Shown one piece after another: positions 39,639-60,171 of a stretch of DNA of 64,000 bases (its first letter is position 1; the number at the start of each line of letters is the position of its first letter). This DNA is from Peredibacter starrii (GTDB lineage Bacteria; Bdellovibrionota; Bacteriovoracia; Bacteriovoracales; Bacteriovoracaceae), in contig NZ_CP139487.1 in NCBI RefSeq assembly GCF_034259205.1, positions 248,001 to 312,000 of the forward strand, written 5' to 3'. Under the pieces are notes generated by a model. That model did not search any database. It was not told where the DNA came from and saw only the letters and a list, made by a program, of their open reading frames with translations. Made by a program: the position numbers and the translations under genes.

Positions 39639-39679
39639 GTTTTCCCCCCAAATATTTAAAATCATTTATAATTAATGCT

Positions 39680-42600
39680 ATGACGAAATACCGAATCCGG
39701 CTGACTAGTGGTCGGGTGATTGGTCCTTTTGTTAAAGCGCAGCTTTTTGACTTAAAGGCCAAGGGACATATTCGAGGAAATGAAGAGGCCCAAATTTTTC
39801 CAACCGGAAATTGGGGACCCATTACCTCTTTTGATTTTTATCCAGAGTTAATGGATGAAAATAAAACCGTGATGCAAACTGAAAGCACGGATGAAAAAAC
39901 TTTTGTCATCGATCTCACACAACTTCGAAATCAAAAAAACGAAAAAGAATTAGAGCAGTACGATCACGGCACGATTGTTCCAGTGGAAGCGCTGACAGAA
40001 ACCATTCGTATGTCTTCTGCTGAACAAAAAGTTCAGCTTTCCCAGGTCGAACCAGCTCCTGCTCCTACGCCAGAACCAGAACCGGAAGAACCAAAAGAAC
40101 CAACTAGAACCGCAGTCACTGCTTCACAAGAAATCCGTCTCAATCCGGAGGAAGGTGAACGCAATGAGAAGACGCAAATCAATATTGTCGCTCAGGCCGA
40201 AATTCAGAATATGAGACGCAAGCAGGCCGCTGCAGAAGCACGGGCCAAGGCAGAGGCCGAAGAAGCAGAACGCCTGAAAGCAGAAGAAGATGCGCGACAA
40301 CTCGCACTCGCTATTCAGCGCCAAGAAGAGGCCGAGAAGGCCAAGGACGACTCGACCCAAATGATCACATTGGATCTCGTGAAGAGTGATCTTTTGGTGG
40401 ATGCAGAAGTGAATGAAGCTCATATCGAGAAGGAACGTAAAGTCGTTCAAAAGAAAAAGAAAGCACTTGAAGGTGAAGACGAGGAAGAAGAAAAGCCAGA
40501 GGACGATGCCGAGGCGTTAAAGAAGAAGAAAAAGAAAAAAATCATCATGATCGTGGCGGGCGCACTCATTGCTTACGCTCTTTTGTTTCCGGGTGATGAA
40601 AAACCGAAGAAGCCACCATTTCAGCATTTGGCCCCGCTGATTGAATTCCCCATCCCATTTGATCAGGCAGAACCTAAACGTTCGCAGGCCGAGTTCAACA
40701 AAGGGATGGAGCTTTTTAATCGTGGGAATTACGCCAGCCTCATCCAGGCGGGAGTTAACTTCAAATCAAGTTATGAAAATAATCTTGAAAATAAAGACGC
40801 CCTCAATTTTCTAGTTAGAACGTATGCTGAGGAATTAAAGCATTCAAAAAATAAACAAGTCGATGCTCAGACCCTCTTTAAGCTCATTCAAGGTAAGCGT
40901 CCATATTTAGTTCAAGACCCGAATGGAGTGATTGGCCTTAACCTCTTTTATATGACCATTGATAAGCCCGGAGCGGCGGTAGATGTTGTTCAAAAGTATC
41001 TGAAGCTGAATCCTAAAAATGTCACTCAGGATCTTTTCGCGGTTCACCTCCTGAGCTTGATGAAACTAGGGAAAATTGAATTGTCTCGTCAGTTTTATCA
41101 GGCACTGATGAAGGCCCCGGAAAAAAATCGTTATGCCTATGAAGCACTTATTCAATATATGCTGCTCAACCAAGAATCAGCATTGGCGCTTGAGTATGCT
41201 GATGAAGCGCTGAAGAAGTTTCCACAAGTGCTGACGTTTTATTTCCTGAAGGCCGAGCTTCTCCTCAAAGAAAAACGTTACAAGGAAATGGTTCCACTCC
41301 TGCAAGTTACTGAAGAGAAGGGATTGGATTATAACGATATTAACCGTGCCAAGTTTTTAGAGTTGACCGGTCTCTTACTTGCGGCCCAAGGTAATGTAAA
41401 ACAGGCCACGATCTTTTTAACGAAATCACTTCAGGTCAAAGATTCCGATGAGCTTCGAGTAAAGCTGGCCGATCTTACAACTGGAGATGGAACTCCGGCA
41501 GATACAGATAAACTCATTAATCAAAGTAAGGCGGTTAAACTTTTAATTGAGGCCCGTGATTTCTACGATAAGCGAAACTATGAGCTTGCCATGAGTACAG
41601 CGGCAAGAGCAGTAGACGCGTATCCTGGATATATTCCCGCCGAGCTCTTCTTATCAAAAGTTCAATTAAGACTCGGGCTTGCTCGCGAGGGGCTTAAAAC
41701 AATTGAGGCCCTGGTTCAGAAGTACCCAGAAGATCGGGCGATTAATATTGCTTTAGTTGAGGCCTATACCAATACCTATAAATTTAATGATGCCCGAAAT
41801 CGCATGACGATTCTTGCCAGCACCCCTCTGAAAGAGAGCTGGGAGTTTGCTTCTTTGAATGCTCGCTTGTTCTTAAAAATGGGCGACTCACTTCAGGCGA
41901 TGTCTTGGTTAAAGACCTCGGTTGGTAATAATCCACTAAACGATGCCGATATCTTTTCGCTATCGGAAATTCTTTTGAAGCGTGCGAACTTTGATAACGC
42001 CCGAATGCTTTTAAATAATGCCATCGAACTTGATCCGATTAACCCGGATTATCGTATTGCTTACGCAAAACTTATCTATGAAACCCAAGATGACCAGGCG
42101 GCGATTGGTTACCTTCTAAGCTTACTGGATGAATTTGGTGAGAACGCAAAGATCCTTTCTGAAATTGCGATCTTCTATTACCGCGTTGGTAAAGTGAAAG
42201 ACTTCCAGGATTACAAAAAGAAAATCGAAGCGCTTCCTTATAAAGATAAGGCACTTTATGAATTCATGATTAAAGCGGCCATGATGGATGAGCGCTATCT
42301 GGAAGTGCCTGGACTGGTTGAGCAGCTACTGGCGATAGAACCGGGTGATCTGGACGCCATGATGACTGCCGGTCGCGTGTTGTATGAAGAAGGGAAATTA
42401 GTTGAGGCGGCAAAGTGGTTTAAGCGAGTTCAGGAAAAACTAAACTCTTATCCGAAGGTCCTCTACTACATTGCTAAAATCAAGTTCTTAAGTAAGGACT
42501 ATGATGGTGCGATGGAAGAAATTAAAAAAGACATTAAAGACAATGGTGAGAATGATTTGAGCCTGGTATTCATGGCTGAAATTCAGGCCGAAAAAGGCGA

Positions 42601-42904
42601 ATTCATCGAATCAGAAAACTTATATAAGCGAGCGCAAAAACTTAATCCTCGCTCTTATGAGGCACTCGTTGGTCTCGCCGACCTCAGCACTAAGCGAAAT
42701 AATTTTGATCTCGCACTGGACTTATACAAGCGCGCAATGAAACAGAAAACGGATGAGCCTATCATTCACAAAAAGATCGGCGACGTCTATCGACTGTTGG
42801 GACAAGGGACTCTGGCCATTGAATCCTATAAATTGTATCTTGATATGGAGCCAGAGGCTCGCGAGAAGGCCAATATCGAAGCTTACATCCAACTCATGCA
42901 ATAG
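39680..42904 (+). CDS. Large trans-envelope TPR protein with N-terminal GYF_2-like domain
   Basis: 1074 residues. Residues 1-56 resemble a GYF_2/DUF4339-type domain (RVIGPFVKAQLFDLKAKGHI...FPTGNWGPI). A proline/glutamate linker and an alanine/glutamate coiled coil (170-260) follow, then a lysine cluster and one membrane helix (IIMIVAGALIAYALLF, about 288-304). The remaining 750 residues are tetratricopeptide-type repeats (ALEYADEALKKFP, SLYKRAQKLNPRSYEAL, LDLYKRAMKQK). Topology suggests a cytoplasmic sensor or docking domain connected to a periplasmic TPR scaffold. TATAAT at 39667-39672, seven bases before the A of ATG, implies a leaderless mRNA. serS follows 7 bp later. Function is unknown; similar layouts occur in motility or secretion scaffolds, which is only an analogy. 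Confidence 0.8.
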   Translation: MTKYRIRLTSGRVIGPFVKAQLFDLKAKGHIRGNEEAQIFPTGNWGPITSFDFYPELMDENKTVMQTESTDEKTFVIDLTQLRNQKNEKELEQYDHGTIVPVEALTETIRMSSAEQKVQLSQVEPAPAPTPEPEPEEPKEPTRTAVTASQEIRLNPEEGERNEKTQINIVAQAEIQNMRRKQAAAEARAKAEAEEAERLKAEEDARQLALAIQRQEEAEKAKDDSTQMITLDLVKSDLLVDAEVNEAHIEKERKVVQKKKKALEGEDEEEEKPEDDAEALKKKKKKKIIMIVAGALIAYALLFPGDEKPKKPPFQHLAPLIEFPIPFDQAEPKRSQAEFNKGMELFNRGNYASLIQAGVNFKSSYENNLENKDALNFLVRTYAEELKHSKNKQVDAQTLFKLIQGKRPYLVQDPNGVIGLNLFYMTIDKPGAAVDVVQKYLKLNPKNVTQDLFAVHLLSLMKLGKIELSRQFYQALMKAPEKNRYAYEALIQYMLLNQESALALEYADEALKKFPQVLTFYFLKAELLLKEKRYKEMVPLLQVTEEKGLDYNDINRAKFLELTGLLLAAQGNVKQATIFLTKSLQVKDSDELRVKLADLTTGDGTPADTDKLINQSKAVKLLIEARDFYDKRNYELAMSTAARAVDAYPGYIPAELFLSKVQLRLGLAREGLKTIEALVQKYPEDRAINIALVEAYTNTYKFNDARNRMTILASTPLKESWEFASLNARLFLKMGDSLQAMSWLKTSVGNNPLNDADIFSLSEILLKRANFDNARMLLNNAIELDPINPDYRIAYAKLIYETQDDQAAIGYLLSLLDEFGENAKILSEIAIFYYRVGKVKDFQDYKKKIEALPYKDKALYEFMIKAAMMDERYLEVPGLVEQLLAIEPGDLDAMMTAGRVLYEEGKLVEAAKWFKRVQEKLNSYPKVLYYIAKIKFLSKDYDGAMEEIKKDIKDNGENDLSLVFMAEIQAEKGEFIESENLYKRAQKLNPRSYEALVGLADLSTKRNNFDLALDLYKRAMKQKTDEPIIHKKIGDVYRLLGQGTLAIESYKLYLDMEPEAREKANIEAYIQLMQ

Positions 42905-42911
42905 GTGATCC

Positions 42912-44186
42912 ATGTTAGACATTAAGAAGATTGAAAGTGATTTTGAAACCGTTAAGAAGAGTCTTGCCAACAGAAACTTTGATACATCTGTGTTGGATCA
43001 GATCGTGTCCCTTAACAAGCAAAGAAAAACTTTAACGACTGCTTCTGAAACAAAGAAAGCAGAAATTAATAAGCTCTCTCGTGAAATCGGCGAACTTAAA
43101 AAGAACAAGCAAGATGCTGCCGCTCCAATGGCACAAGTTGCTGCTCTTAAGGCCGACATGGAAAAAGAAGCGACTGAACTAGATGAAGTTCAGGCAAAAC
43201 AAAATGCGCTTCTTTTAAATATCCCTAACCTTCCGGACGCTTCAGTTCCAGTTGGTAAAGATGAAGAAGAAAACGTTGAAGTAAAACGTTGGGGAACTCC
43301 TCGTACATTTGATTTCGCTCCGGTTGATCACGCCGTACTAGGTGAGCAACTTGGAATATTAGATTTCGAAACTGCCGGTAAAATCACTGGTGCTCGTTTC
43401 GTTATTTATAAAGGTGCGGCCGCTCGTCTTGAGCGCGCGCTTATTAACTTCATGCTCGATCACCAAGGTTCAAAGGGCTTCACTGAGATGATGACTCCGT
43501 TCATCGCTCACGAGCGCTCACTCGTTGGTACTGGTAACCTTCCTAAGTTTGAAGACCAGTTGTTCAAACTAAACTCTGAGCAACCTTGGTATCTGATCCC
43601 AACTTCGGAAGTAACTCTTACGAACATCAAACGCGAATCAATCATTGAAGAAAATGAATTCCCGTTCCTATACGCTGCTTATTCTCCGTGCTTCCGTTCT
43701 GAAGCTGGTTCTCACGGTAAAGATGTAAAAGGTCTGATCCGTATGCACCAATTCAATAAGGTTGAGATGGTTTCAATCTGTTCACCTGCTCAGTCTGAGG
43801 AAGTTCATCAGAAGATGGTGGCAAGTGCGACTGAGATCCTGGAAAAACTGGGTCTACCTTACCGTCAGATCGCGCTTTGTACTGGGGACATGGGTTTCGC
43901 GTCGCAAAAGACTTTTGACTTAGAAGTATGGGTTCCGAGCCAGAATAAGTACCGTGAGATCTCTTCGATCTCTAATTGTGGTGAATTCCAGGCCAGACGT
44001 GCCAGCATTCGCTTCCGTAATAAGGAAGGGAAGATCGAATTTGCTCATACTTTGAACGGTTCTGGGCTTGCTGTAGGCCGTACAGTGGTGGCAATCCTTG
44101 AAAACTACCAGCAGAAGGACGGCTCAGTGCAAATTCCGGAAGCTTTAGTGCCTTATATGGGTGGATTGAAAGAAATTCGTAAATAG
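42912..44186 (+). CDS. serS: Serine--tRNA ligase
   Basis: 424 residues. The N-terminal antiparallel coiled coil that grips the tRNA-Ser long variable arm is MLDIKKIESDFETVKKSLANR...EINKLSREIGELKKNKQD. Class II motifs follow: motif 2 FRSEAGSHGKDVKGLIRMHQFNKVEMVSI, and motif 3 TLNGSGLAVGRTVVAILENYQ. It charges tRNA-Ser. AGGTGATCC precedes the ATG. Two tRNA-Ser genes (UGA and GCU anticodons) lie immediately downstream, so the enzyme and two of its substrates are encoded together. Confidence 0.98.
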   Translation: MLDIKKIESDFETVKKSLANRNFDTSVLDQIVSLNKQRKTLTTASETKKAEINKLSREIGELKKNKQDAAAPMAQVAALKADMEKEATELDEVQAKQNALLLNIPNLPDASVPVGKDEEENVEVKRWGTPRTFDFAPVDHAVLGEQLGILDFETAGKITGARFVIYKGAAARLERALINFMLDHQGSKGFTEMMTPFIAHERSLVGTGNLPKFEDQLFKLNSEQPWYLIPTSEVTLTNIKRESIIEENEFPFLYAAYSPCFRSEAGSHGKDVKGLIRMHQFNKVEMVSICSPAQSEEVHQKMVASATEILEKLGLPYRQIALCTGDMGFASQKTFDLEVWVPSQNKYREISSISNCGEFQARRASIRFRNKEGKIEFAHTLNGSGLAVGRTVVAILENYQQKDGSVQIPEALVPYMGGLKEIRK

Positions 44187-44190
44187 ATAA

Positions 44191-44219
44191 TTGCCTTTTT
44201 TTTTCCGAGCCTTTATATT
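44191..44219 (+). promoter_or_regulatory. Promoter of tRNA-Ser(TGA)
   Basis: TTGCCT (44191-44196), 17-bp spacer, TATATT (44214-44219), 15 bp before the tRNA 5' end. It begins right after the serS stop, so the tRNA has its own promoter. Confidence 0.65.
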
Positions 44220-44233
44220 AGATGACTCAAGAC

Positions 44234-44323
44234 GGAGGACTGGCCGAGTGGTTTAAGGCAACAGTTTTGAAAACTGTCGTGGGTTAACGCCTACCTGGGG
44301 TTCGAATCCCTAGTCCTCCGCCA
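44234..44323 (+). tRNA. tRNA-Ser (anticodon TGA)
   Basis: 90 bases with encoded CCA (44321-44323). Acceptor GGAGGAC pairs with GTCCTCC; the anticodon loop TTTGAAA holds TGA at 44268-44270, closed by ACAGT/ACTGT; the T loop is GGTTCGAATCC. The long variable arm is characteristic of serine tRNA. It decodes UCA and related UCN codons. Confidence 0.97.
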
Positions 44324-44372
44324 CTTTTTGTTGATGAAGCTTTTCAGCTTCAATCACACAAAAAGAGTTTCA

Positions 44373-44400
44373 TTGAAATTCATGTATCGTGTTCTATTAA
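44373..44400 (+). promoter_or_regulatory. Promoter of tRNA-Ser(GCT)
   Basis: TTGAAA (44373-44378), 16-bp spacer, TATTAA (44395-44400), ten bases before the tRNA 5' end. Confidence 0.5.
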
Positions 44401-44410
44401 GCCAATTAGC

Positions 44411-44500
44411 GGAGACGTGGGTGAGTGGCTTAAACCACACCCTTGCTAAGGGTGCGAAGGGTAATTCCTTCCATGAGTTCAAATCTCATCGTCTCCGCCA
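44411..44500 (+). tRNA. tRNA-Ser (anticodon GCT)
   Basis: 90 bases with encoded CCA (44498-44500). Acceptor GGAGACG pairs with CGTCTCC; the anticodon stem CACCC/GGGTG closes the loop TTGCTAA with anticodon GCT; long variable arm and T loop GTTCAAATC. It decodes AGC/AGU serine codons. Confidence 0.97.
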
Positions 44501-44524
44501 CTTTCAAAAATTTTTCAAAAGAAT

Positions 44525-44551
44525 AAGCCCGGTGAAAACCGGGCTTTTTTT
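44525..44551 (+). terminator. Terminator after the tRNA-Ser pair
   Basis: AAGCCCGGT (44525-44533), GAAA loop, ACCGGGCTT (44538-44546), then T residues to 44551. The convergent dioxygenase-like gene ends at 44550 inside it. Confidence 0.92.
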
Positions 44552-44933
44552 ATGTCTTCAATCGATCGTAGTGAAGAGGAACAACAGCACCCAGCCAGAT
44601 CGCGGCCTGAGTGTGATCAAGATAATCATCACCTGTTAATTCATGAATAAGGACGTTGAGGTTTTTCCTCTCGTACATTAACCACAAGGTGACTTCCGAA
44701 AATAATCGCTTAGGGAAATTGATCTCAAGCATAGGGTGAGTATGGGGACCAATCGCTTCTCCAATAACATCTCCGACAAAGACTTCTTCATCACGAAAGC
44801 GTTCGATCGCCTTGGCCCTTAATTCCACCGCAAGGTTGAGATCTTTTAACTCGAAGTAAATGTGAGCATCGAACTGGCGAGGAAAGTTTGCAGGAAGTTG
44901 TTTGCTGTTAACTATATAAGGAGGGATGTTCAT
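44550..44933 (-). CDS. DOPA 4,5-dioxygenase family protein
   Basis: 127 residues. The motifs FDAHIYFELKDLNLAVELRAKAIERF, GPHTHPMLEINFPKRLF and LIHELTGDDYLDHTQAAIWLGAVVPL match the small DOPA 4,5-dioxygenase-like family of vicinal-chelate-type extradiol enzymes; the histidines in DAH, HTHP and IHE are likely metal ligands or catalytic. Substrate in bacteria is unknown. The minus-strand sequence TATAGA lies exactly six bases before the ATG, so the transcript is probably leaderless. It converges on the tRNA terminator. Confidence 0.85.
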   Translation of the reverse strand: MNIPPYIVNSKQLPANFPRQFDAHIYFELKDLNLAVELRAKAIERFRDEEVFVGDVIGEAIGPHTHPMLEINFPKRLFSEVTLWLMYERKNLNVLIHELTGDDYLDHTQAAIWLGAVVPLHYDRLKT

Positions 44934-45024
44934 CTAACATCTATAACATAGACTGCTTCTCTCTGGTAATGGAGCAATGGCATTGTTTTATTTTTTATGA
45001 TTGATGCTAGAATATTGAGAATAA

Positions 45025-47595
45025 ATGAAACGTTTATTCCTTCGCAACCAGATTGGTAGCTCACTCATTTTCGTCTTCGCCGCTCTTGGCATTCTTGCCT
45101 CGATTTCCATTTATGTTTTGAAGGTTAATAAACAGATGTCGGAACAAACATCTGCTTTATGGCAAAGAACCATTGCTGATGAAACTGCACAATCTGCATT
45201 TGTGATTATGGAATCTGCGATGGCAAGACGTTTATGGTCTCCCCCGCCTGATAATAATTGCATGATTGATGAAGAGTTTTCAGTCACAGGGACGCTTGAT
45301 AATGGCGCCACTTATGAAGTGAACGCAAAGTACATCATTGATTCAAAAACTCTTGAGATGGTGGCGACCGGTAAATACAAGGACTACGAGTCAAAGTATC
45401 TGAAGAACTTAAAAATTTACGATGTAACTGATTATCTGGTTTTAAGTAAGGCCGCCAAGACCACTACGATTGCGGCCCCTCAATACAGTGCCACTTTACC
45501 AGCGAGTATGATTGCTCGTGATCGAAAAGTTTATTTCGAGGGGGGCGTTGCTTTCCAGTCGATTACCGATCGAGCAGGCTCATTTGATTGGGACAAAAAC
45601 GCGACGGTCCCGATGCGAAATCCTGGTGAGATTAATATCATTCTTCAGGCCGAGCGAATGATTTTTAAAGGCGGGATAATGTATTCCCCGCTCCTATCGC
45701 CTAGGCCTGCTCCAGACAATTATCCAAATTTTTATAACGATTTTAAAGATCTTACCTATGATGCTTTCGGACCCAATCCAGGGCCATTATATTACTGGCA
45801 ATGGGGTGGCGGTGGCTCATTCATGACTGGCGATTATACGCTCGCCAATCAAGTAAACGCCAGTATGCGCTCAGGAACTGCAGTGAGTATGAGTCTGATT
45901 CGTAAACACTTTTATCCAATCGCATTTACCACCGGGTCACTTCCACTCAACGCCACTTATGCTTCTGATAATGGAACCTATTTTAATGACCCTAACCGTT
46001 GGATTATTGCTTACTATTCCTATGGCCCGAATGGTGTTTCGACTTATGGTCACCGTGCGAATTTTAGCTGTTATACCTTAGCGCAAGGTGCGGACACGAG
46101 ATATTGTTCTGCCAGTAATCTTTTCCCGAGAGGCTTTGAGGCCTGGCGTTTGAGTGCGGATTTGAAGGGTGTTCTCTTTACTGATGACTTTGAAGAACTT
46201 CAGACTCAAACGATCACGTGGGACAACATGGAGGCAATGAAAGACGATGCAAAATCTTGCGGAATTTATGTAAGTCCTACTTCAGGTAAGGCCTCAAGCA
46301 GTTATGAAGATTGCGACATGAGCGATTATAACTTTGTGACGAAATATATTTACGGTAATGGAACTTGTAATCGCATTTACCGTTTAGATAGTGAAAGCAT
46401 TCAAAGCAAACTCGCTAACTTCTCATCAGGGGCCTATTCTGGAACAGCTCCTAAAACTTTAAGAAGAGTTATTTATTCGGAAGTGCCGCTTGAGATCGTG
46501 CAAAATCAAGCCGCCGGTCTCGCCACCAATATGAGTGCTGATGTGAGAAAAAATCTCCCACTTTGGGTGGTAAATGAAGATGTGAATATCATTAGGCCAC
46601 ATCAGCCGGATACCACCAGTCCCATTGATGAGAGGCCCCTGGAATTTCGTCAGCTATATTTTAATGGTTCAAGCTCTGGTGCCATGACGTCTTTAAAGCT
46701 CGTTTATATCAGTCCAGAGAAGACCATTATTAATTCGCCTTTTCATGTGCCTTTGACACCGGGTGAACTCTCACTCGACTTTCCTGTTGTCGGTGGAAAA
46801 ATTAGACCAAACTACAGTTCGACCACAGATTGGAAGCACCAGGAAGAAGACGGATTTAAGTATGGTGTACGTATTGTAAATATCAAAAACACCTCATTGA
46901 TCGATAACACCACCCATTTTAATTACAACGAAGGTTTCAGTTTCCGGGGCCTTTGGAGTGTGGTGAATTCATCTGCCATCCAGGTTCTCAGAAATGGCTG
47001 TATGATGAGTCCTTCAGAGAGTGAACCAATTTCAGGAAAGAGACAGGAACCTGCTTACATTAAAGTTACCGGAAGAGAGCCGACACTACCCCCAGGACAT
47101 CCTGCTCTGGGAAGAACAGTACCGCCTCTTTCCAGTCGTTTTTACGATAAGACTGCAGGAATCAAAATGCCTTTGTATTATCGTCCTTATGTGTTTCAAC
47201 TTCAAAACAACATTGATGTATATGGCTCAGTCATCAATTTTGAAGGAACACGATTGGGAGTTTATTTTTCGGATGACACCAGCTCGGGAAAAAGAAATCT
47301 CAACGTCCCTAAATACAACCGCGTAGACATGTACGCGACAAACCTGATTGATCTATCGAAGCGCTCCTACGTTTGGGACAGTGGTGATTGGTATAACGAA
47401 GTGGGAACGGCGACTAGTCCGATTCCTTGTTCAGTTTCTCCTGTCACACGTGGAACCACGGATAGTATTCACCAAATGCATATTCCATTAAATTTATCGG
47501 TATTCACTTTTATGCATGTTTCACCGGCAGAAGAATTTAATTCAATCGGTTCCATCATGTCTCTTCCTCTACCAATGATTAAGATGAGAAAATAA
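45025..47595 (+). CDS. Large PilX-like minor pseudopilin (type IV pilus or type II secretion related)
   Basis: 856 residues. The N-terminus RNQIGSSLIFVFAALGILASISIYVLKVNKQM is a prepilin-like segment: short basic leader, Gly-Ser cleavage site, then one hydrophobic helix without the usual Glu5, as in PilX/GspK proteins. The very long C-terminal domain has no family I recognise; it contains scattered cysteines (NCMIDEE, FSCYTLAQGADTRYC, KSCGIYV, EDCDMSD, NGTCNR). TAGAAT at 45008-45013 gives a leader of only a few bases. Its stop overlaps the next start (TAATG), making a three-gene pseudopilin operon. Such proteins prime or cap pili. Confidence 0.75.
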   Translation: MKRLFLRNQIGSSLIFVFAALGILASISIYVLKVNKQMSEQTSALWQRTIADETAQSAFVIMESAMARRLWSPPPDNNCMIDEEFSVTGTLDNGATYEVNAKYIIDSKTLEMVATGKYKDYESKYLKNLKIYDVTDYLVLSKAAKTTTIAAPQYSATLPASMIARDRKVYFEGGVAFQSITDRAGSFDWDKNATVPMRNPGEINIILQAERMIFKGGIMYSPLLSPRPAPDNYPNFYNDFKDLTYDAFGPNPGPLYYWQWGGGGSFMTGDYTLANQVNASMRSGTAVSMSLIRKHFYPIAFTTGSLPLNATYASDNGTYFNDPNRWIIAYYSYGPNGVSTYGHRANFSCYTLAQGADTRYCSASNLFPRGFEAWRLSADLKGVLFTDDFEELQTQTITWDNMEAMKDDAKSCGIYVSPTSGKASSSYEDCDMSDYNFVTKYIYGNGTCNRIYRLDSESIQSKLANFSSGAYSGTAPKTLRRVIYSEVPLEIVQNQAAGLATNMSADVRKNLPLWVVNEDVNIIRPHQPDTTSPIDERPLEFRQLYFNGSSSGAMTSLKLVYISPEKTIINSPFHVPLTPGELSLDFPVVGGKIRPNYSSTTDWKHQEEDGFKYGVRIVNIKNTSLIDNTTHFNYNEGFSFRGLWSVVNSSAIQVLRNGCMMSPSESEPISGKRQEPAYIKVTGREPTLPPGHPALGRTVPPLSSRFYDKTAGIKMPLYYRPYVFQLQNNIDVYGSVINFEGTRLGVYFSDDTSSGKRNLNVPKYNRVDMYATNLIDLSKRSYVWDSGDWYNEVGTATSPIPCSVSPVTRGTTDSIHQMHIPLNLSVFTFMHVSPAEEFNSIGSIMSLPLPMIKMRK

Positions 47596-49135: not shown

Positions 49136-49144
49136 AAATGAAAA

Positions 49145-49162: not shown

Positions 49163-49174
49163 CTAACATTAAGC

Positions 49175-49916: not shown

Positions 49917-51155
49917 ATGAAAAAACTAATCTTTGCCTTCGCCACCATTATGTCCCTTTCTGCCTCTGCTGATGTCTGGGTCGATAGAGAAACCTGGGAC
50001 GCCGAGTGGGAGACTAAGTTCTCCGAATGGGTGAAGACCCAAAATGTAAATAAGGACATGTTTGTCTCAGCAACTTCCAAATATAAAGGAGTGGTCGCTG
50101 ATTGTGCCGACGTTTCATATAATTTCCGAGTGATTTTTGCTTTTGAAAATGGTCTTGCGTTCTCTGCTAAAAACCCAATGGCCACTTCTACGAGCAAAAT
50201 GAAACATTTCACCAATCGCATGACTATGTTTGATAACATCCAGGACCCTCATAAGCGTCTGGTTGCCTTCATGAATTATCTTGGAAAGAGTTTAGGGACT
50301 GAGACCCTGGCCGCATCGGATTCGTATCCAATGAAGCTGAGTGAAATCAAAGCGGGTGACGTTTATCTGTATAAAACAAAAATGGCAGATAAGTTCGTGC
50401 GCCATACTTACAACTTTAAGAACATCGATCGCCGTGGAAACTTTGAAGTGATTTATTCCACTCAGGCCATTCGTGATTCGGGCGCGCCGATGAATCAAAA
50501 AGTTAAGGCCATGTATAACCCACCGGTCGCTTATAAGTGGGGCTTCCGTCGCTATGATTATGGTGTATCTGCGAAACCGGGCAAGACCACACAGTCACAA
50601 GCATATAGTGATGAGCAGTTTCTATTGGCCCAGCAAATGGACAGTAATAAATTCTTCAATCACGTGAAGTCACTTTTAAGACAGGAAATTGAGAGTCCAG
50701 AGGACCTGATTAAGAATCAATTGAAAGAACTTTGTAGTCAGGTGAAAGAACGAATTGAAATCGTAAACCGCGCCGTCACTTATAAATCATCAATCGCTAA
50801 TAAGTGTATGGAGTACGCAGATTTTGATACTCACTCTACTCCATCACGTGATGGTCGCTTAAAAGAAATCATCACAAATCTTGATGCAGACTTCAAAGAC
50901 ATTAATAAAAAAGACCTAACGCTTGAAACATCTGATCTGGTGGAGGCGATCTATAACAGCACTCCTACTCAGTATCAATTAGAGAAACTTCTTACTTTTT
51001 GTCCGATTTCTTATAAACCGGGCACAACTGTTTCTCTAAGAGAAATTCGTATCCGCTCGAGTAAGGGTCTTCTATCTTCTCATCCGAATGATTCATTAGA
51101 AAATCGTTGGGGCGAAAAGAGCAACGGGAAAACTAAGTGTGAAGCATTCTACTAA
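49917..51155 (+). CDS. Exported protein, possible NlpC/P60-like cysteine hydrolase
   Basis: 412 residues from the ATG at 49917, whose signal peptide is MKKLIFAFATIMSLSASA; an upstream ATG at 49896 adds seven acidic/polar residues and is unlikely. TACAAT at 49905-49910 is exactly six bases before this ATG (leaderless). The segment VVADCADVSYNFRVIFAFENGLAF followed about 100 residues later by KFVRHTYNFKNI resembles the Cys and His placement of papain-like amidases; this is a structural guess, not a family match. The C-terminal half is helical. It is followed by a membrane-anchored protein (17-bp overlap) and MepA, so a wall-related role is plausible. Confidence 0.6.
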   Translation: MKKLIFAFATIMSLSASADVWVDRETWDAEWETKFSEWVKTQNVNKDMFVSATSKYKGVVADCADVSYNFRVIFAFENGLAFSAKNPMATSTSKMKHFTNRMTMFDNIQDPHKRLVAFMNYLGKSLGTETLAASDSYPMKLSEIKAGDVYLYKTKMADKFVRHTYNFKNIDRRGNFEVIYSTQAIRDSGAPMNQKVKAMYNPPVAYKWGFRRYDYGVSAKPGKTTQSQAYSDEQFLLAQQMDSNKFFNHVKSLLRQEIESPEDLIKNQLKELCSQVKERIEIVNRAVTYKSSIANKCMEYADFDTHSTPSRDGRLKEIITNLDADFKDINKKDLTLETSDLVEAIYNSTPTQYQLEKLLTFCPISYKPGTTVSLREIRIRSSKGLLSSHPNDSLENRWGEKSNGKTKCEAFY

Positions 51156-51792: not shown

Positions 51793-51804
51793 CAGAGGAT
51801 GGTT

Positions 51805-52494: not shown

Positions 52495-52518
52495 CTGACT
52501 TTAGTACTTGGAATTGAA

Positions 52519-52570
52519 GCATCCTTCCCATCTACTCTTTCTTTTGGCATGAGTTAGAATGGAAGGATGC
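52519..52570. repeat. 10-bp inverted repeat around the Rieske gene start
   Basis: GCATCCTTCC (52519-52528) and its exact complement GGAAGGATGC (52561-52570) are 42 bp apart centre to centre, four helical turns. The right half covers the start codon. Because transcription likely begins at the ATG, this would act on DNA rather than as an RNA hairpin. Confidence 0.45.
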
Positions 52571-53649
52571 TGAAAGATAGTGAAATTAAAAAAGTTTCTA
52601 AAGACGATCATCCTCGTAAAGAGAATGCCTTCTCTCAGCCGTTAAATCATCAGCCGATTTTTAATCAACCCCATGTCATCACTGAATCCTGGTATCCAGT
52701 TTGTCCTGCTTCATCTTTAAAAGAGAATGAAACTCGTTCGTTTACAATGCTTCAACATCGCTTCGTTGTTTGGCGTGGGAAAAGCGGAAAGCTGTATGCC
52801 ATGGATAGTTTCTGTCCCCACATGGGAGCAGATCTAGGTAATGGAAATGTGATTGGTGAGAATCTTCAGTGTTACTTTCATCATTGGATATTTCTTCCTG
52901 GCGGAAAATGCGCCAATCATAAAGAGGGAAATCTTGAATCCTATCCAGTGGAAGAAAAGTATGGTTTCATCTGGATCTATCCCGGAAAAAATCCTACGCA
53001 TTCAGTGCCTCAACCTCCAGGACTTCTTAATCAGGAAGTGGACGCACTTTATCTAAAAAAATTAAAACTCTATGCTCATCATCATGTGATGATGGCGGGT
53101 GGAATTGATCTGCAACATTTTAAGAGTGTACATAAGGTTGATATCAAATTTGATTATCAAATCATTGAACACGGTAAACATGTTTATACCTGGGACCTAT
53201 CGGGCATTCTTCCTTCTGGATCTCTTCTTCTAAATTTCACACGGTGGTTAACTGGTGGTGAATTTAAATATCAGGCCCTCTTTGCAGGTGGCTCGATTGT
53301 GAGTCTGACTTATGGAAATGATCTTAGATTTCGTGGTCGGGGGTTTAAACTTCCCAATGTAAGTATACTCTGGGCGGGCAGACCTACTGTAGATGGGGTC
53401 AGTGAAGTAGACATCTTTATCATTCGACCAAAGTTCAAAGGACTTCTCGCCCCAATTAAAAAGTTTGCCTCAACTTTATTTTCCATTGTTCTTTTGGCTG
53501 CCCTTCGGGATGACGACACCAAGGCATTTCCCCATATGCGGTTTAACGTTGGTCTTACAACTGAGGGTGATAAATCGGTCATGGATTTAGTAAGTCGTAT
53601 TAATGAAGTTCCAGTTTCACACTGGACCAAGGACTCTCGTGAGAAATGA
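52567..53649 (+). CDS. Rieske non-heme iron oxygenase, terminal oxygenase component-like
   Basis: 360 residues. The Rieske [2Fe-2S] ligands are Cys83, His85, Cys102 and His105 in CPHMG...CYFHHW, and the mononuclear iron ligands are in GGIDLQHFKSVH (Asp181, His184, His189). This is the layout of ring-hydroxylating and sterol-type Rieske oxygenases. Substrate is unknown, and no ferredoxin/reductase gene is adjacent. TAGAAT at 52555-52560 is exactly six bases before the ATG, so the mRNA is probably leaderless; GGAAGG next to the ATG is too close to act as a ribosome binding site. The next gene overlaps by 11 bp, indicating coupling. Confidence 0.88.
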   Translation: MLKDSEIKKVSKDDHPRKENAFSQPLNHQPIFNQPHVITESWYPVCPASSLKENETRSFTMLQHRFVVWRGKSGKLYAMDSFCPHMGADLGNGNVIGENLQCYFHHWIFLPGGKCANHKEGNLESYPVEEKYGFIWIYPGKNPTHSVPQPPGLLNQEVDALYLKKLKLYAHHHVMMAGGIDLQHFKSVHKVDIKFDYQIIEHGKHVYTWDLSGILPSGSLLLNFTRWLTGGEFKYQALFAGGSIVSLTYGNDLRFRGRGFKLPNVSILWAGRPTVDGVSEVDIFIIRPKFKGLLAPIKKFASTLFSIVLLAALRDDDTKAFPHMRFNVGLTTEGDKSVMDLVSRINEVPVSHWTKDSREK

Positions 53650-54391: not shown

Positions 54392-54508
54392 CGCTACAAC
54401 CCACTGAAATGACACAAAATTGGCCCAGATCGATAACTCTTTAAAAGTTCTCAACTTTCACCTTGAAATCTTTGCGTTCTTGCTTTAAAACTAGGGACTC
54501 AAATCAGC

Positions 54509-54585
54509 GCAGTCGTAGCTTAGTTGGATAGAGCACTTGACTACGAATCAAGAGGTCGCACGTTCGAATCGTGCCGATTGCGCCA
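54509..54585 (+). tRNA. tRNA-Arg (anticodon ACG)
   Basis: 77 bases with encoded CCA (54583-54585). Acceptor GCAGTCG pairs with CGATTGC (one G-T); anticodon stem CTTGA/TCAAG closes CTACGAA with ACG at 54543-54545; T arm GCACG-TTCGAAT-CGTGC. The A34 should be deaminated to inosine to read CGU/CGC/CGA. A weak promoter (TTGAAA 54463-54468, TAAAAC 54486-54491) precedes it. Confidence 0.97.
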
Positions 54586-54594
54586 TTTAAAAAA

Positions 54595-55125
54595 CTACCT
54601 CTTCAACTCCCTTAAAAATGTATCAACTTCCAATCTCGATCTGAGATGAACAAACTTTATATGTGAGAGTTTTGGATCCGACATGATCCCAAGATATTTC
54701 TTACGATTAGATTTATAGGTCTTTAAAAACCACCACAGAATTGAATCTCTCGAAAACAACATCCGAAATGTTTCTCGATTATTAGTTCCCGGCCACAACT
54801 CTTCTTTTGTAACGGCTCGGATAAAAGCTCGCTTTGTGCTTTGATAAAAATTCAACCAAAACGGAAAATCGATCCAGATAACTGTATCAGCATGGGGCCA
54901 GGTCAGATGATTGGCACGAGAGTAGTTTCCATCCACAATCCAACGGTCATTTTGAACGGCCGTTTTAATTCTATTAAAAAAAACTTCATCCCCTACTTCA
55001 GTCCAATTGGGTCCCCAGTTTAAGACATCTAGTTGTACATGCGGGATTTCTAATATTTGGGAAAGGTTCCTCGCGAGAGTGGATTTTCCACTGGCGGTGG
55101 TCCCAACAACAATGATTCTCTTCAT
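54595..55125 (-). CDS. Small P-loop kinase (FlaR/adenylate-kinase-like)
   Basis: 176 residues. Walker A GTTASGKST at 8-16 in MKRIIVVGTTASGKSTLARNLSQIL; then LDVLNWGPNWTEV, RWIVDGNYSR and DTVIWIDFPFWLNFYQSTKRA, the pattern of the family annotated as DNA topology modulation protein FlaR, an adenylate-kinase relative. Its substrate is unknown. On the minus strand TATCTT lies six bases before the ATG, a weak candidate for a leaderless start. It converges on the tRNA-Arg gene with a nine-base gap. Confidence 0.8.
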   Translation of the reverse strand: MKRIIVVGTTASGKSTLARNLSQILEIPHVQLDVLNWGPNWTEVGDEVFFNRIKTAVQNDRWIVDGNYSRANHLTWPHADTVIWIDFPFWLNFYQSTKRAFIRAVTKEELWPGTNNRETFRMLFSRDSILWWFLKTYKSNRKKYLGIMSDPKLSHIKFVHLRSRLEVDTFLRELKR

Positions 55126-55192
55126 AAAATTAAGATAACATAATTTAGACTTTTCTCCAGACTCATGGTGAACTCAAATTTTGGGGTCAAAC

Positions 55193-56209
55193 ATGAAACG
55201 TATTTTGCTTGGAATTGTTATCATTTCGGTAATGGCAATAGTGTCTTACAAATTATTAGGAACTCCTCAAAAGGCCATTGTCACAAATCCGATCCAAAAA
55301 GAAGTCCTGAAAACATCTCCGCGCCTTTCCCTGAAAGATGTGCGCTACTCTGTTTCTAAAACTGAGAAGAAGAAAATATCTTTTCCCATGGAGTGCTACT
55401 CACCCCTGGCCGATCTAAGTTCTATGACGATTGCTGAGTACAATGGGATCGCTCAGAGTAAGAAAAGTTTCGAAGATTTCTTTGGCAAAGATTGCACTGA
55501 TTTGTTGAAGGACAACGCCACCTTCGATTCGTTACTAAAGACATCAGGTTGTAACTTCTCAACTGATAAAAATGGTGCCTGCATTTCTTTAATGCTGATG
55601 TTGAAGGCAAACTTTATGGCCGAACTGACTGACAACAAAAGGCCAGAAGAAATGACTTCTGAAGAACTTGCTTCTCATCTAGTACGCATGTTCTTTTCGA
55701 TGGATAAATTAAAACCAGAAAGTTTTGTGTCGAATCTCAAAATTGCCGATCTTCTTTATTCAAAACACATGAATGACCCTGAGATCATCGAGGCCTACTT
55801 GGGCTATTTGATGATTGGTCAAAAGATCACAGGTGTACAATCCGTGAGAGAAAGAATTGATACAATCCTGGCCGAATCTGAAGGCAATTCATTTAAGGTT
55901 GATCGCCTATTGGTCATTAAAGAGGCCTTGGCAGAAAATCTGGCCGGGGCCCGTGAAGTCCTTGATGGTTTACAGAGTAAGTATCCCCAAGAGCCAGATC
56001 TTCACTATTACTATGCCGCCTATCACTGGAAAACGGGTAATCGAGAACTCGCACTTGCGTCACTTGATCGGGCCATTGCATTTGGGACAAATTGCAGGGA
56101 ATGCCGGCCTTCAATGTATGAAGAAACCAAAAGAAAGCTCGTGAGTGCTAAAGATAAGGACGATCAACTTTTCTCAATCTCTATAGGATTGAACTTCGAT
56201 AATCTATAG
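55193..56209 (+). CDS. Membrane-anchored TPR protein
   Basis: 338 residues from the ATG at 55193 (a TTG four codons earlier is rejected). One N-terminal hydrophobic helix (ILLGIVIISVMAIVSYKLL), a cysteine-containing middle region (MECYSPL, KDCTDLL, SGCNFSTDKNGACISL) and C-terminal TPR-like helices (AREVLDGLQSKYPQEPDLHYYYAAYHWKTGNRELALASLDRAIAFG) ending in a CRECRP cluster. Probably a periplasmic or inner-membrane scaffold. The next gene follows 14 bp later with AGGAAAC as ribosome binding site. Function unknown. Confidence 0.72.
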   Translation: MKRILLGIVIISVMAIVSYKLLGTPQKAIVTNPIQKEVLKTSPRLSLKDVRYSVSKTEKKKISFPMECYSPLADLSSMTIAEYNGIAQSKKSFEDFFGKDCTDLLKDNATFDSLLKTSGCNFSTDKNGACISLMLMLKANFMAELTDNKRPEEMTSEELASHLVRMFFSMDKLKPESFVSNLKIADLLYSKHMNDPEIIEAYLGYLMIGQKITGVQSVRERIDTILAESEGNSFKVDRLLVIKEALAENLAGAREVLDGLQSKYPQEPDLHYYYAAYHWKTGNRELALASLDRAIAFGTNCRECRPSMYEETKRKLVSAKDKDDQLFSISIGLNFDNL

Positions 56210-56223
56210 ATCAGGAAACAATC

Positions 56224-57105
56224 ATGAATGCACTTAAAGAGTTTCTTGAAGGTATTGTTTCAGACAAGGCATCATCCCGAACAGTTGTCGGTATTACTGC
56301 CTTGATCAACTTAGTGGGCTCTTTGATTTTGATTTATGGATTAATCAATAAACCCTTTTATGAAACAGTTCTTCAGATCCGTATTGTTCATGTTCTCATC
56401 ACATCGGTTGTTTTAATCCTTTTATTGAAAATCAAGGATGGATGGAATTCTTATCTCGGGGCCATCTCCTATCTCATTTTATACACACCTATATTTTTCA
56501 CTGGATGGTATAATCATGTGGCAATCGTTGAGGCCCAAATTTTGAGCAAGCCTTATGGTGGATTTCCTGTCGTGTTTATGATGCTCGCTGTTCTGGTACC
56601 ATACTCTTATTTACTAAATTCGATTTTATTGGCCCTATTTTCCATTGAAACAGTCATCATCTGGTATGCCATGGATTTAGGTTCAAAACCTTTCATTGCC
56701 GGCAATGGCGAGCCCTTTTATATCGTGGTCTTCGCGTTTGTTTGTTTCTGCCTACTTTTTCTTCGTTTTCGCATCGATACCAAGGTTCACAAGCTTATGG
56801 AGCAAAAGGCACGGTCTGAATTCGTTGAAAACCTGGCGCGCACTTTCCTAAGCATGCGCGATAGGAACAATACTCCGCTGCAGTCTTTGTTAATTCTAAG
56901 TAGCTCCTTAAAAAATGATAAACCTATGACCCAGGAACAAATCGACGCATTCAAAAGATCTGTCATGACCCTGATCAGCTCAAATAAAAACTTGGTTCGG
57001 TATGAGACTAAGATACAATGGGGAAAACGTGATCTTATGACTGACTCTGAAATTGAGACCTGGTTAAGTAAGATAGAAGATGAAGTTGAAAAGGACAAAA
57101 AATGA
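56224..57105 (+). CDS. Six-helix membrane protein ending in a degenerate histidine-kinase dimerisation helix
   Basis: 293 residues. Six membrane segments (about 20-190) are followed by FRIDTKVHKLMEQKARSEFVENLARTFLSMRDRNNTPLQSLLILSSSLKND, which resembles a histidine-kinase DHp helix including the TPLQ after the phospho-acceptor position, but the usual histidine is missing (MRDRNNTPLQ). The protein stops about 90 residues later with no ATPase domain. It may be a sensor that signals through a partner kinase or a decayed kinase. A lipoprotein gene overlaps its end by 4 bp. Confidence 0.6.
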   Translation: MNALKEFLEGIVSDKASSRTVVGITALINLVGSLILIYGLINKPFYETVLQIRIVHVLITSVVLILLLKIKDGWNSYLGAISYLILYTPIFFTGWYNHVAIVEAQILSKPYGGFPVVFMMLAVLVPYSYLLNSILLALFSIETVIIWYAMDLGSKPFIAGNGEPFYIVVFAFVCFCLLFLRFRIDTKVHKLMEQKARSEFVENLARTFLSMRDRNNTPLQSLLILSSSLKNDKPMTQEQIDAFKRSVMTLISSNKNLVRYETKIQWGKRDLMTDSEIETWLSKIEDEVEKDKK

Positions 57106-57731
57106 AATGGATTTTAATTCTTGCCATGGTTGCGGCATGTAGTACAAAGGTAAAAGAAGAAAAGAGGCCCGAGGTGACTAAGGTCATGTCTCCCATTCAG
57201 GATGCCGCTTTCTATGACCTAGAAGGCACTTATTCTCTTCCACATGGGAAAAACTGTGAAATTACCTGGAGTATCACTCGTAAAAAAGAAAAGGTTAAAA
57301 AGAACATTCTGCTGAGACTTTATCAGAATGAATGTAAAGATAGCTTCACCAAGCTACTTCCTACTCATCGGGCGATCTTAACTAAATTATTCGCGGACTT
57401 TCCGGCAGACTCTGTTGTCGGTGTGAGTACTGGCGGTTTTGAGGCGATTAATCCAACCGGTGAATGGAACCTTGATATTGCCAAGGCCTCTTATAATTTT
57501 AAATCAAGACGTTCTACAAATTCTCAATTTGTCGACTTTGCTAAACAAACCAATTCTTATCAACCGTTCAAAGATCTATTCAAAGGCTTCGGAATAAATC
57601 TCGAACTTGATAAAGTTGAGAAGGTCTTTTTCATGAAAGTTAAAGAAACCAAATTTAAAGATCAGTTTGGTCCTTCACTTCAGAATCAGAATGTAATGAC
57701 GGACGCTGGTATGATCTGGTGGAAACAATAA
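57102..57731 (+). CDS. Lipoprotein of unknown function
   Basis: 209 residues. MKWILILAMVAAC is a short lipoprotein signal with cysteine 13. The mature region includes a sequence of the kind PHGKNCEITWSITRKKEKVKKNILLRLYQNECKDS with one likely disulfide. It overlaps the sensor-like membrane protein gene by 4 bp (ATGA), so both are made together. Its 3' end overlaps the convergent glycosyltransferase gene by 77 bp. No family is recognised. Confidence 0.7.
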   Translation: MKWILILAMVAACSTKVKEEKRPEVTKVMSPIQDAAFYDLEGTYSLPHGKNCEITWSITRKKEKVKKNILLRLYQNECKDSFTKLLPTHRAILTKLFADFPADSVVGVSTGGFEAINPTGEWNLDIAKASYNFKSRRSTNSQFVDFAKQTNSYQPFKDLFKGFGINLELDKVEKVFFMKVKETKFKDQFGPSLQNQNVMTDAGMIWWKQ

Positions 57732-58911
57732 AATACCAGCCTCTCACGGCCACTGGAATAATGAACACATCAAACGGGATCCGGAAACGGATCTCGCTCT
57801 TGAAAATGTAAACACAAAGAAATAACGATAGAATGGGCAGGACCCAAATCAAAAATTCCTGACCTTTTTTAGCTCGATAAAGATATAAAGCGTATCCAGC
57901 AAGACCCGGTAAAACAAAACACGCAAAAACTAGTTCATAAAGTCTAATAAGCCCACGGAACGGTAGTTCACTGGCGGGCCAGAGATAGTTTCCTAAAAAC
58001 AAAAAGAAAATACCTTCTACCGATTGAATCAACACCAGTGGATTCTCTTTAATACATTTAAACCCCTCATTCATGAAGTAACTAGAGTTATTAAAACTTT
58101 CGGGCCAGCGTTTTTCGGTTTTCATGCCGAGTTGGTAATACAGAGGTGAGATCCAAAGAATGCCGCGGTTATCGATGTTTCTTTTACTTGGGCATTTCCC
58201 TTCTACAAAGTTTAATCCGCCCGCGGTGGGAGTGAGATGAAATTTTCCAACCTTGTTATATGAGAAGGCGCCGTGTAGCAGAAGACCTGCTCCTACAATG
58301 AGCGAGATTGCAAAAATTCCTTTGAATGCCTTTATCTTATAGAAATAGAAAAGACCTAAAAGAAACAACGGACCATAAAAAGCGTGATTACCTTTGATGA
58401 GAAATGACAGAAGGAAAGTCATTCCCCAATAGTATCCCCACTTAAGTCCATTACTTTGATCATTGACGAGTCTATATCCAAAATAGAGGAGCAAACTAAG
58501 TCCGAAAGTAAAAAGGGACTCGGAAAGACCATAGCCATTATAAACGATCCAAGGAACATGAAGGGTTCCAATTAAGAGTGAAACCTTGGCGACTTTCTCA
58601 CTCCAGGTCTGATAACTAATTTTCCAGATGATAAATAAAGTTATGGTTGAAGTAATGGCCTGAATAATAGACAGCGGAGTTGCCCATTCACCAAAAAAAG
58701 TTTCTAGAAAGTAGATGAGATAAGGAAAGCCAATAGGCTGGAAAAAATGGAAGTCATTCCATTCCCCTCTTCCAATCATTCCTGCGATGCGAACATAGTT
58801 TGCGACATCAGACACAACAAATTGTGCGGGCGAATAGACCCATAGAACATAGGCCATTCGCAAAACCATACCAACAACTAGCAGCACAATCACATTCTTA
58901 TTTCGAGGCAT
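57655..58911 (-). CDS. Integral membrane glycosyltransferase, GT39/ArnT-like
   Basis: 418 residues with about ten membrane helices. The first periplasmic loop has SDVANYVRIAGMIGRGEWNDFHFFQPIGFPYLIYFLETFFG, with an acidic SD residue pair in place of the catalytic aspartates of GT39/GT83 lipid-linked sugar transferases; HVPWIVYNGYGLSESLFTFGLSLLLYFGYRL is also typical. It probably moves a sugar from a lipid carrier to an envelope acceptor. TATACT (58918-58923, minus) lies exactly six bases before the ATG, so the message is probably leaderless. The 3' end overlaps the convergent lipoprotein gene. Confidence 0.8.
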   Translation of the reverse strand: MPRNKNVIVLLVVGMVLRMAYVLWVYSPAQFVVSDVANYVRIAGMIGRGEWNDFHFFQPIGFPYLIYFLETFFGEWATPLSIIQAITSTITLFIIWKISYQTWSEKVAKVSLLIGTLHVPWIVYNGYGLSESLFTFGLSLLLYFGYRLVNDQSNGLKWGYYWGMTFLLSFLIKGNHAFYGPLFLLGLFYFYKIKAFKGIFAISLIVGAGLLLHGAFSYNKVGKFHLTPTAGGLNFVEGKCPSKRNIDNRGILWISPLYYQLGMKTEKRWPESFNNSSYFMNEGFKCIKENPLVLIQSVEGIFFLFLGNYLWPASELPFRGLIRLYELVFACFVLPGLAGYALYLYRAKKGQEFLIWVLPILSLFLCVYIFKSEIRFRIPFDVFIIPVAVRGWYFIVSTRSYQRPSLHSDSEVKDQTDL

Positions 58912-58980
58912 AGGGTAAGTATAAAAGCGAGAGTACTAAAAGATGAACTGATTTAATCCAAATTATGCATGAAGTAACTT

Positions 58981-59151
58981 TTATGTTGTGCCCTTATCAA
59001 AGTTCTTCTTAATAGTGTCCGCTGCGCCAGAGTAGTTCTTATTCTTTAAATCTTCTTTTATTTTTGTTTTATCGGCCTCGGATGTTTTGTCCCACGCCTT
59101 TTTAACTGTCCCTTTGATGCCACTAATGTTTCCTTTTAATGCTTCATCCAT
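58981..59151 (-). CDS. Small charged protein of unknown function
   Basis: 56 residues: MDEALKGNISGIKGTVKKAWDK...ADTIKKNFDKGTT, lysine-rich and probably helical. GGGAGG lies five bases before the ATG, a strong ribosome binding site, and a -24/-12 sigma-54-type promoter lies 50 bp upstream (59201-59216). The start GIKGTVKKAW resembles the CsbD pattern of KG-x-W-K spacing, but homology is not clear. It belongs to the small stress-type gene set in this part of the window. The 477-bp gap 58912-59388 holds only this gene, its promoter and the start region of the next. Confidence 0.7.
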   Translation of the reverse strand: MDEALKGNISGIKGTVKKAWDKTSEADKTKIKEDLKNKNYSGAADTIKKNFDKGTT

Positions 59152-59200
59152 ATATCCCTCCCTGTTGGTTATGAGGGCCTAGGGCTCTCAATAAACAAGC

Positions 59201-59216
59201 AGCAGCTTTCATGCCA
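59201..59216 (-). promoter_or_regulatory. Sigma-54 (-24/-12) promoter, small protein gene
   Basis: On the minus strand TGGCATGAAAGCTGCT matches TGGCACG-N4-TTGCW with GG and GC separated by ten bases. The transcript would begin near 59189, about 38 bases before the small-protein ATG at 59151. Confidence 0.65.
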
Positions 59217-59388
59217 TAAGAAGTCATAGAAAACTCTGAAGTTTGGGTCATTTTACCCTTTGGTACTAAACCTTTAACCTATCTAAATTCAAAGGCTTAG
59301 GTCTGTATAAAGCTTAGACATTGATATAAAAACTTCAAAATCAGGTATTCATTCCGAATGCCATTATCTTCATCGGTAGAATACAACT

Positions 59389-60171
59389 ATGAATTTCACC
59401 AAGCTGTTAGTGCTTCTTGTGCTCTCAACTTTACTCGCTTCCTGCGGGCAAAATTCTAATGGCAAAAAAATCATTAGTTTAAATAGTGAAGAAATGAACA
59501 AAATGATGTCAGAGCAAACTTTCGAGTGTGCTTCTGAAAACGGATCCAACTGTCCAGATGGAATTGCCCGTCTCTTCGTAGTGAATGAAGAAGATCCAAC
59601 CAGGTCATCTGTCTGTTCTGGATTTCTAAACGGTGACAATCGTCTTGTTACCAACAACCACTGTCTCTCAACTCTTTCTCAGTGTAAGGCGACTTATATT
59701 TCCATTTACAGCAGCAAAGGCCTTGAGACCGCTCGATGTAAGTCAATTATCCATACAGAAGTTGATGGTAAAACTTTAAACCAGAAGGCCGTCGATTTCA
59801 CCGTTCTCGAGCTGGATCATAAGATTCAAAATTCAAAACCACTACCAGTCGCAAAGAGGCAGGCCTACCAAGGCGAAAAACTCATCGCATGGGTGGTGGA
59901 TCAAATCAATAATCGTCAGGCGAGAATTACAGAACTTAATTGTAATCTCAGTCGTAAGGCAAAATCTCTTGAGTTACAAAACTGCCCGGTTATTTCAGGC
60001 AACTCTGGTTCACCAGTTTTAAATGAACAAGGTGAACTTTCCGCTCTTATCTGGGGATCGACTGCAGATGAGACAGTCAACGAAGAGACATCGTTGTTTG
60101 AACGTCGAAGCCTAAATGAATATGCCTTTGCCACTGACCTCAAACATTTTCTTAAATATCTCATCAAATGA
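59389..60171 (+). CDS. Lipoprotein trypsin-like serine protease
   Basis: 260 residues. Lipoprotein signal MNFTKLLVLLVLSTLLASC (Cys19). The catalytic triad of the S1/V8-like fold is His91 in LVTNNHCL, Asp136 in AVDFTVLELD and Ser206 in SGNSGSPVLN. Paired cysteines (CASENGSNC, VCSGF, HCL, QCK) suggest disulfides, consistent with a periplasmic or surface location. TAGAAT at 59377-59382 is exactly six bases before the ATG, pointing to a leaderless transcript. Its stop overlaps the PEP carboxylase start (ATGA), an unexpected partnership for a secreted protease. Confidence 0.9.
   Translation: MNFTKLLVLLVLSTLLASCGQNSNGKKIISLNSEEMNKMMSEQTFECASENGSNCPDGIARLFVVNEEDPTRSSVCSGFLNGDNRLVTNNHCLSTLSQCKATYISIYSSKGLETARCKSIIHTEVDGKTLNQKAVDFTVLELDHKIQNSKPLPVAKRQAYQGEKLIAWVVDQINNRQARITELNCNLSRKAKSLELQNCPVISGNSGSPVLNEQGELSALIWGSTADETVNEETSLFERRSLNEYAFATDLKHFLKYLIK

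Follow-up and report, generated by a model that had tools for sequence, protein, structure and literature searches.

In Peredibacter starrii, it is very probable that a minority of genes, core genes included, are leaderless owing to sigma70-type promoters placed directly before the start codon. The case was drawn from a stretch of 64,000 nucleotides of the contig NZ_CP139487.1 (positions 248,001 to 312,000), which is called the window here. I found that a -10-like hexamer, TANNNT, recurs six or seven bases before the ATG of genes without a Shine-Dalgarno (SD) sequence. This arrangement is enriched in the genome, is accompanied by a -35-like match at 17 bp, and is conserved between species, and the enrichment is absent from SD-led genes and from Escherichia coli K-12. 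Leaderless genes had been proposed for the window in an initial annotation, and the proposal is now supported by sequence statistics, by the distance to the -35, by conservation between species, and by a negative control. From these I infer where the mRNAs begin and how ribosomes bind them. Leaderless initiation would thus be a minor genome-wide mode beside the SD-led one and does not seem to define a functional class.

A sigma70 promoter whose -10 ends six bases before an ATG is expected to start transcription at the A of that ATG. If such a -10 lies close to the start codon (six bases, with about five to eight tolerated), transcription would begin on this A or at most two bases from it. The mRNA would then have neither a leader nor an SD sequence, and its 5′-terminal AUG may be bound directly by ribosomes with the initiator tRNA. 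The architecture would belong to individual promoters, being conserved in the genus at the level of single genes and at times swapped for an SD-led start.

The genome is a single contig of 4.15 Mb, and one protein of the window has its nearest public match (58% identity) in a Bacteriovoracaceae MAG. I sampled 40 stretches of 20 kb across it (800 kb), with the window excluded, and called genes with a simple gene caller of my own, which is blind to upstream signals. Genes were divided by whether they stand first in a transcription unit and by whether they have an SD match (at least 4 nt of TAAGGAGGTGA at a usable distance). Below, Nk means that k bases lie between the end of the hexamer and the ATG. 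Among the 176 SD-less, unit-first ATG genes of the sample, TANNNT was found at N6 in 19 and at N7 in 13, against a background of 3.98 per position (about 2.3% of the genes). The combined count is 32 versus 8.0 expected (P = 1.2e-10). The initial annotation had turned on whether the six-base spacing is enriched throughout the genome, and this count from the 800-kb sample favours its finding. At N6/N7, TANNNT ranks first among all 64 XYNNNZ motifs, and the runner-up reaches only P = 0.006. The excess was not found in SD-led unit-first genes (7 of 239 versus 13.4 expected). The SD-less genes inside operons have a small one (6 of 82 versus 2.2 expected, P = 0.03). The hexamer precedes 4770 in-frame internal ATGs at rates of 1.4% (N6) and 2.0% (N7), versus 10.8% and 7.4% for the SD-less unit-first genes. 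Raw counts of TATAAT-Nk-ATG over the whole genome are 48 for N6, 33 for N7, and 23 for N12, while the reversed-pattern controls give 19, 19, and 18. At the SD-less, non-operon-internal starts of 18 GTG and 15 TTG genes, no TANNNT was found at N6/N7. Extrapolated roughly to the 4.15 Mb of the genome, an excess of about 24 genes per 800 kb corresponds to about 125 genes, or some 3%.

The hexamers look like parts of promoters. The inner bases of the N6 hexamers, for which no selection was made, lean to TANAAT, with 10 of 23 versus 63 of 464 TANNNT hexamers farther upstream (P = 7e-4). The match score to TTGACA peaks at 2.43 at a spacing of exactly 17 nt; the other spacers from 10 to 24 score 1.14-1.92, and in other genes this place scores about 1.65. 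This -35 at 17 bp holds for the sites as a group. In SD-less genes, two-hexamer promoters (TTGACA/TATAAT) are concentrated at N6-8, with 16 sites in 188 genes; in SD-led genes, they lie mostly beyond N20. An extended -10 (TGN) was seen in 6 of 37 candidates versus 18 of 151 other SD-less genes, which is no clear difference.

Two side observations concern promoters of this kind outside the window. L020:10994-11845 (+ strand) and L027:8388 (- strand) encode similar proteins of 284-285 amino acids, with an HNH match in the L020 copy, the sole copy scanned. In both, TTGACA and a near-consensus spacer are followed by a TATTGT or TATCTT hexamer at N6 or N7. At G000:C1:919197-919222, a stretch resembling ATTATAAT is shared by two overlapping, divergent TATAAT-N6-ATG matches; a single palindromic -10 might here serve a pair of leaderless starts placed back to back.

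Is the arrangement found in other genomes? In a congener (G003), 17 genes have the hexamer at N6/N7 versus 6.3 expected (P = 3e-4), and in a member of a different family of the same phylum (G028), 18 versus 7.3 expected (P = 6e-4). In both, the -35 score has its maximum at 17. The same pipeline run on 350 kb of E. coli K-12 gave no peak (2 versus 2.7 expected).

Conservation was then assessed gene by gene. The query consisted of 14 of the 32 sampled candidates, hand-picked as likely to be conserved; three of the 14 had no mapped homologue, and L038_13033 entered because it lies in a fetched stretch. From 57 mapped rows, six were removed for a start offset of more than 3 residues, all of them rows of L038_12350. 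Of the resulting 51 orthologue pairs of 12 genes, 28 have TANNNT at N6 and one has it at N7, and each of the other spacings from 0 to 39 occurs at most six times. For the SD-led controls, eight of 24 randomly drawn genes were queried, of which six were mapped, and L043_10604 was added by neighbourhood. These seven genes gave 33 pairs, with TANNNT at N6/N7 in 0/33 and an SD sequence in 33/33. The arrangement is kept in PilM (6/6), N-formylglutamate amidohydrolase (5/6), a beta-lactamase-fold gene (4/4), and RsgA (4/6). ProB has it in four of six homologues (L162, L154, L155, L167), and the remaining two (L169, L170) are SD-led. For the FtsH gene (L026:14463, - strand), TANNNT lies at N8 in 4/4 congeners (L165, L171, L172, and L174). 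Some of these also have a second in-frame ATG, nine bases before the called one, so the true start is uncertain.

The initial annotation had listed seven sites in the window with a hexamer ending exactly six bases before the ATG. These sites and their genes are as follows; the N6 hexamers are sequence readings.

39613..39636, + strand: terminator-like hairpin with a T tail, which ends the upstream unit; a promoter for 39680 has about 40 bases left
39667..39672, + strand: TATAAT, N7 to ATG 39680; putative -10 of the TPR gene
39680..42904, + strand: TPR protein gene, 1074 amino acids, the best supported putative leaderless gene of the window
44940..44945, - strand: TATAGA, N6 to ATG 44933; not a TANNNT, weak
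44550..44933, - strand: DOPA dioxygenase-family gene, 127 amino acids
49905..49910, + strand: TACAAT, N6 to ATG 49917
49917..51155, + strand: gene for a 412-amino-acid protein without a Pfam match
52555..52560, + strand: TAGAAT, N6 to ATG 52567
52567..53649, + strand: Rieske-domain protein gene, 360 amino acids
55132..55137, - strand: TATCTT, N6 to ATG 55125
54595..55125, - strand: short P-loop gene (AAA_18-like, score below gathering), absent from the list of my gene caller
58918..58923, - strand: TATACT, N6 to ATG 58911
57655..58911, - strand: PMT_2-like glycosyltransferase gene, 418 amino acids
59377..59382, + strand: TAGAAT, N6 to ATG 59389
59389..60171, + strand: trypsin-like peptidase gene, 260 amino acids

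The exact six-base rule stands for five of the seven sites (49917, 52567, 59389, 58911, and 55125, all TANNNT-N6-ATG). It does not stand for 39680, whose TATAAT is at N7, or for 44933, whose TATAGA is at N6 but lacks the final T and makes a poor -10. The claim that none of the sites has a usable SD sequence was borne out, the longest match to TAAGGAGGTGA being shorter than 4 nt for the window genes. The local density of sites in the window is not clearly unusual relative to the genome: 5 of the 12 SD-less unit-first genes of the window have TANNNT at N6/N7 versus 32 of 176 outside (Fisher P = 0.06), and for N6 alone the numbers are 4 of 12 versus 19 of 176 (P = 0.04), in a window that had itself been picked for these sites.

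Of the window genes, the TPR gene at 39680 has the best supported arrangement. All 26 congeners, P. starrii included, have TATAAT (25) or TATACT (1) and no SD sequence, with protein identities down to 51%. The spacing is N5 in four, N6 in eight, and N7 in 14 of them. The protein begins with MTKY in 20 of the 26 and with close variants in the others. One hairpin was found at 39613-39636, versus a mean of 0.4 in shuffled sequences; since it lies just upstream, there is little room for a leadered promoter. In positions 39650-39666 and at the same place in the 25 other congeners, conserved CC-AAA and AAAATC blocks precede the TATAAT, and there is no TTGACA-like -35. These blocks may be an activator site. 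AAAATC is conserved three bases before the -10 at 39680 and recurs in three homologues of 58911. A factor shared through AAAATC-N3-TANNNT was considered, and this spacing is not commoner than other spacings in the samples from P. starrii, G003, and G028, so no common factor is proposed.

The arrangements at 59389 and 58911 are partly conserved. For the trypsin-like gene, 11 non-self, full-length homologues (L083-L093) were counted as the best ones from other genomes, with second copies and weaker matches excluded. Six of these 11 have TANNNT at N6/N7 (L083-L087 and L091, with leaderless-type starts), and three others have an SD sequence of at least 5 nt (L089, L090, and L092). The PMT-like gene at 58911 has TANNNT at N6 in four of six homologues. 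In the Rieske family, all eight distant homologues of 52567 from the same genus (30-35% identity) have TAAAAT at N6/N7. These homologues (L053-L059 and L066) also have CTCGAC(GG) in common, about 17-27 bases before the TAAAAT-N6/N7-ATG, which suggests a conserved promoter whose -35 is unusual.

According to the initial annotation, leaderless starts mark genes of accessory, exported, or membrane character. This part of the proposal was not supported. A Pfam scan covered 30 of the 32 sampled candidates (L021:6353 and L027:8388 excluded), and gene names such as ProB are my own reading of the Pfam domains. The set includes FtsH (M41/AAA), a ProB-type amino-acid kinase with PUA, RsgA, PilM, FGase (N-formylglutamate amidohydrolase), and the regulators Rrf2 and Crp. 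It also includes a response regulator, two histidine kinases, a bestrophin, an EamA transporter, a fatty-acid desaturase, and an HNH nuclease. Signal-peptide-like N-termini are equally common in candidates (12 of 37) and SD-led genes (72 of 250; P = 0.70), so the set is not enriched for signal peptides. Of the membrane character, only a weak difference remains, and no wider class enrichment goes with it: transmembrane segments beyond residue 30 occur in 11 of 37 candidates versus 35 of 250 SD-led genes (P = 0.027, uncorrected, one of three tests). This difference is what speaks for the idea that the leaderless genes are real and form a functional class as well. With FtsH, ProB, RsgA, PilM, and regulators in the set and the TPR gene present in all 26 congeners, I regard that idea as unlikely. 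Homologues within the genus alternate between leaderless-type and SD-led starts. The promoter architecture recurs and the functional class does not, and homologues can change architecture.

TANNNT is common in A+T-rich DNA, and fitting sites may have been picked by eye; the background of about 2.3% per position and the two sites that stretch the rule, 44933 and 39680, are in keeping with this. However, the excess of 32 versus 8.0 lies in sequence that was not seen when the sites were picked, N6 is conserved in other species, and the TPR gene has its hexamer in 26/26. Chance is refuted for the genome-wide excess and, as the whole explanation, is very improbable, yet it may account for individual sites, 44933 and 55125 among them. 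Another explanation is that the hexamers are real promoters while the true start codons lie downstream, which would give ordinary leaders. Start codons were indeed called from coding potential, without protein data. Against this, homologues align from residue 1 with an offset of 0 in nearly all cases, and the TPR protein keeps its MTKY-like N-terminus. No SD sequence of at least 4 nt precedes the listed in-frame downstream starts of 59389, and only TAAG precedes those of 58911. It is therefore hard to credit downstream starts with more than a slim chance. Finally, the A+T-rich hexamer might be a translation signal within a leader, such as a site for ribosomal protein S1, rather than a promoter. 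For other groups, A+T-rich signals ahead of start codons are indeed described in the accessible part of PMC3160421. The -35-like matches at exactly 17 bp, the TANAAT inner consensus, and the terminator directly upstream of 39680 do not fit such a signal, which is the least credible of these explanations.

Several results weigh against leaderless starts, for single genes or in general. About a quarter of the candidates are expected by chance. L021_6353 has an AGGAG-led GTG upstream in six of six homologues, and the arrangements of L028_994 and L038_12350 are not conserved; all three appear to be false positives, which for 12 genes is about the number predicted from the background. The orthologue pairs are not independent, because several genes have almost the same upstream sequence in G003 and G012. 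The initial, smaller samples of G003 and G028 were weakly significant (9 versus 4.0, P = 0.02, and 11 versus 4.7, P = 0.009). A scan for a two-hexamer (TTGACA/TATAAT) promoter at 39680 found none. The nearest homologue of 52567 (L049, 58%) has GGAG and no such -10, and the sole close orthologue of 49917 (53%) looks SD-led (GAGGTG). For 55125, the homologues reach at most 34% identity and none has the arrangement. The gene at 44933 has no good -10, and no TANNNT was found at N4-9 either here or in its 60% homologue.

The mechanism is known from other bacteria, and P. starrii is a well-supported new instance of it. In mycobacteria, the leaderless share of the transcriptome is said to be much larger than that estimated here. 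Mycobacterial mRNAs that start at the start codon alongside SD-led ones were mapped by RNA-seq, according to the accessible parts of PMC3898074 and PMC4633059; the similar starts proposed here are read from the DNA. In the part of Zheng et al. 2011 (PMC3160421) that was available, TA-led genes are defined by a TANNNT with its first T some 12 bp upstream of the start codon (N6), and the motif is read as the sigma70 -10 of leaderless genes. The genes described here resemble them in the position-specific TANNNT at N6, the lack of an SD sequence, the -35 at about 17 bp, and the spacing kept in homologues. The same source, a survey of annotated genomes, gives 8 of 33 genomes and a mean of 15.8% for delta-Proteobacteria, and Bdellovibrio is not named in that part of its text. 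Unlike in that survey, the share here is lower (about 3% of genes by a conservative count), and conservation and start-mode switching were traced per gene in one genus. Leaderless translation is described as kasugamycin-insensitive and IF2-favoured in the available portions of PMC5230787 and PMC10783764. The primary transcriptome of Bdellovibrio bacteriovorus (PMC3627812), as far as its text was available, is a TAP-based 5′-end map of a distant relative, with attack-phase promoters tied to FliA; the words leader, Shine, and untranslated are absent from that text. In PMC9753608, "leaderless" occurs only in a reference title. A literature search that did not cover subscription journals found, in the texts accessible to it, no study of leaderless genes in Bdellovibrio, Bdellovibrionota, or Bacteriovorax.

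It may be speculated, with considerable doubt, that leaderless initiation is a retained and selected mode of control for fixed core genes (the TPR gene at 39680, PilM, N-formylglutamate amidohydrolase, and RsgA). Such genes would be translated when SD-led initiation is low, for example in a non-growing phase. RsgA would tie the mode to the maturation state of the 30S subunit, and peripheral genes would drift between leaderless and SD-led starts.

In summary, this is a comparatively tested case of probable leaderless genes in a group for which no description was found, and one core gene holds its -10-to-ATG distance in 26 of 26 species. For annotators it is a warning that a leaderless model is needed when start codons are predicted in these genomes. 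A genus whose orthologues appear to use either leaderless or SD-led starts would allow a direct comparison of the cost and benefit of each mode.

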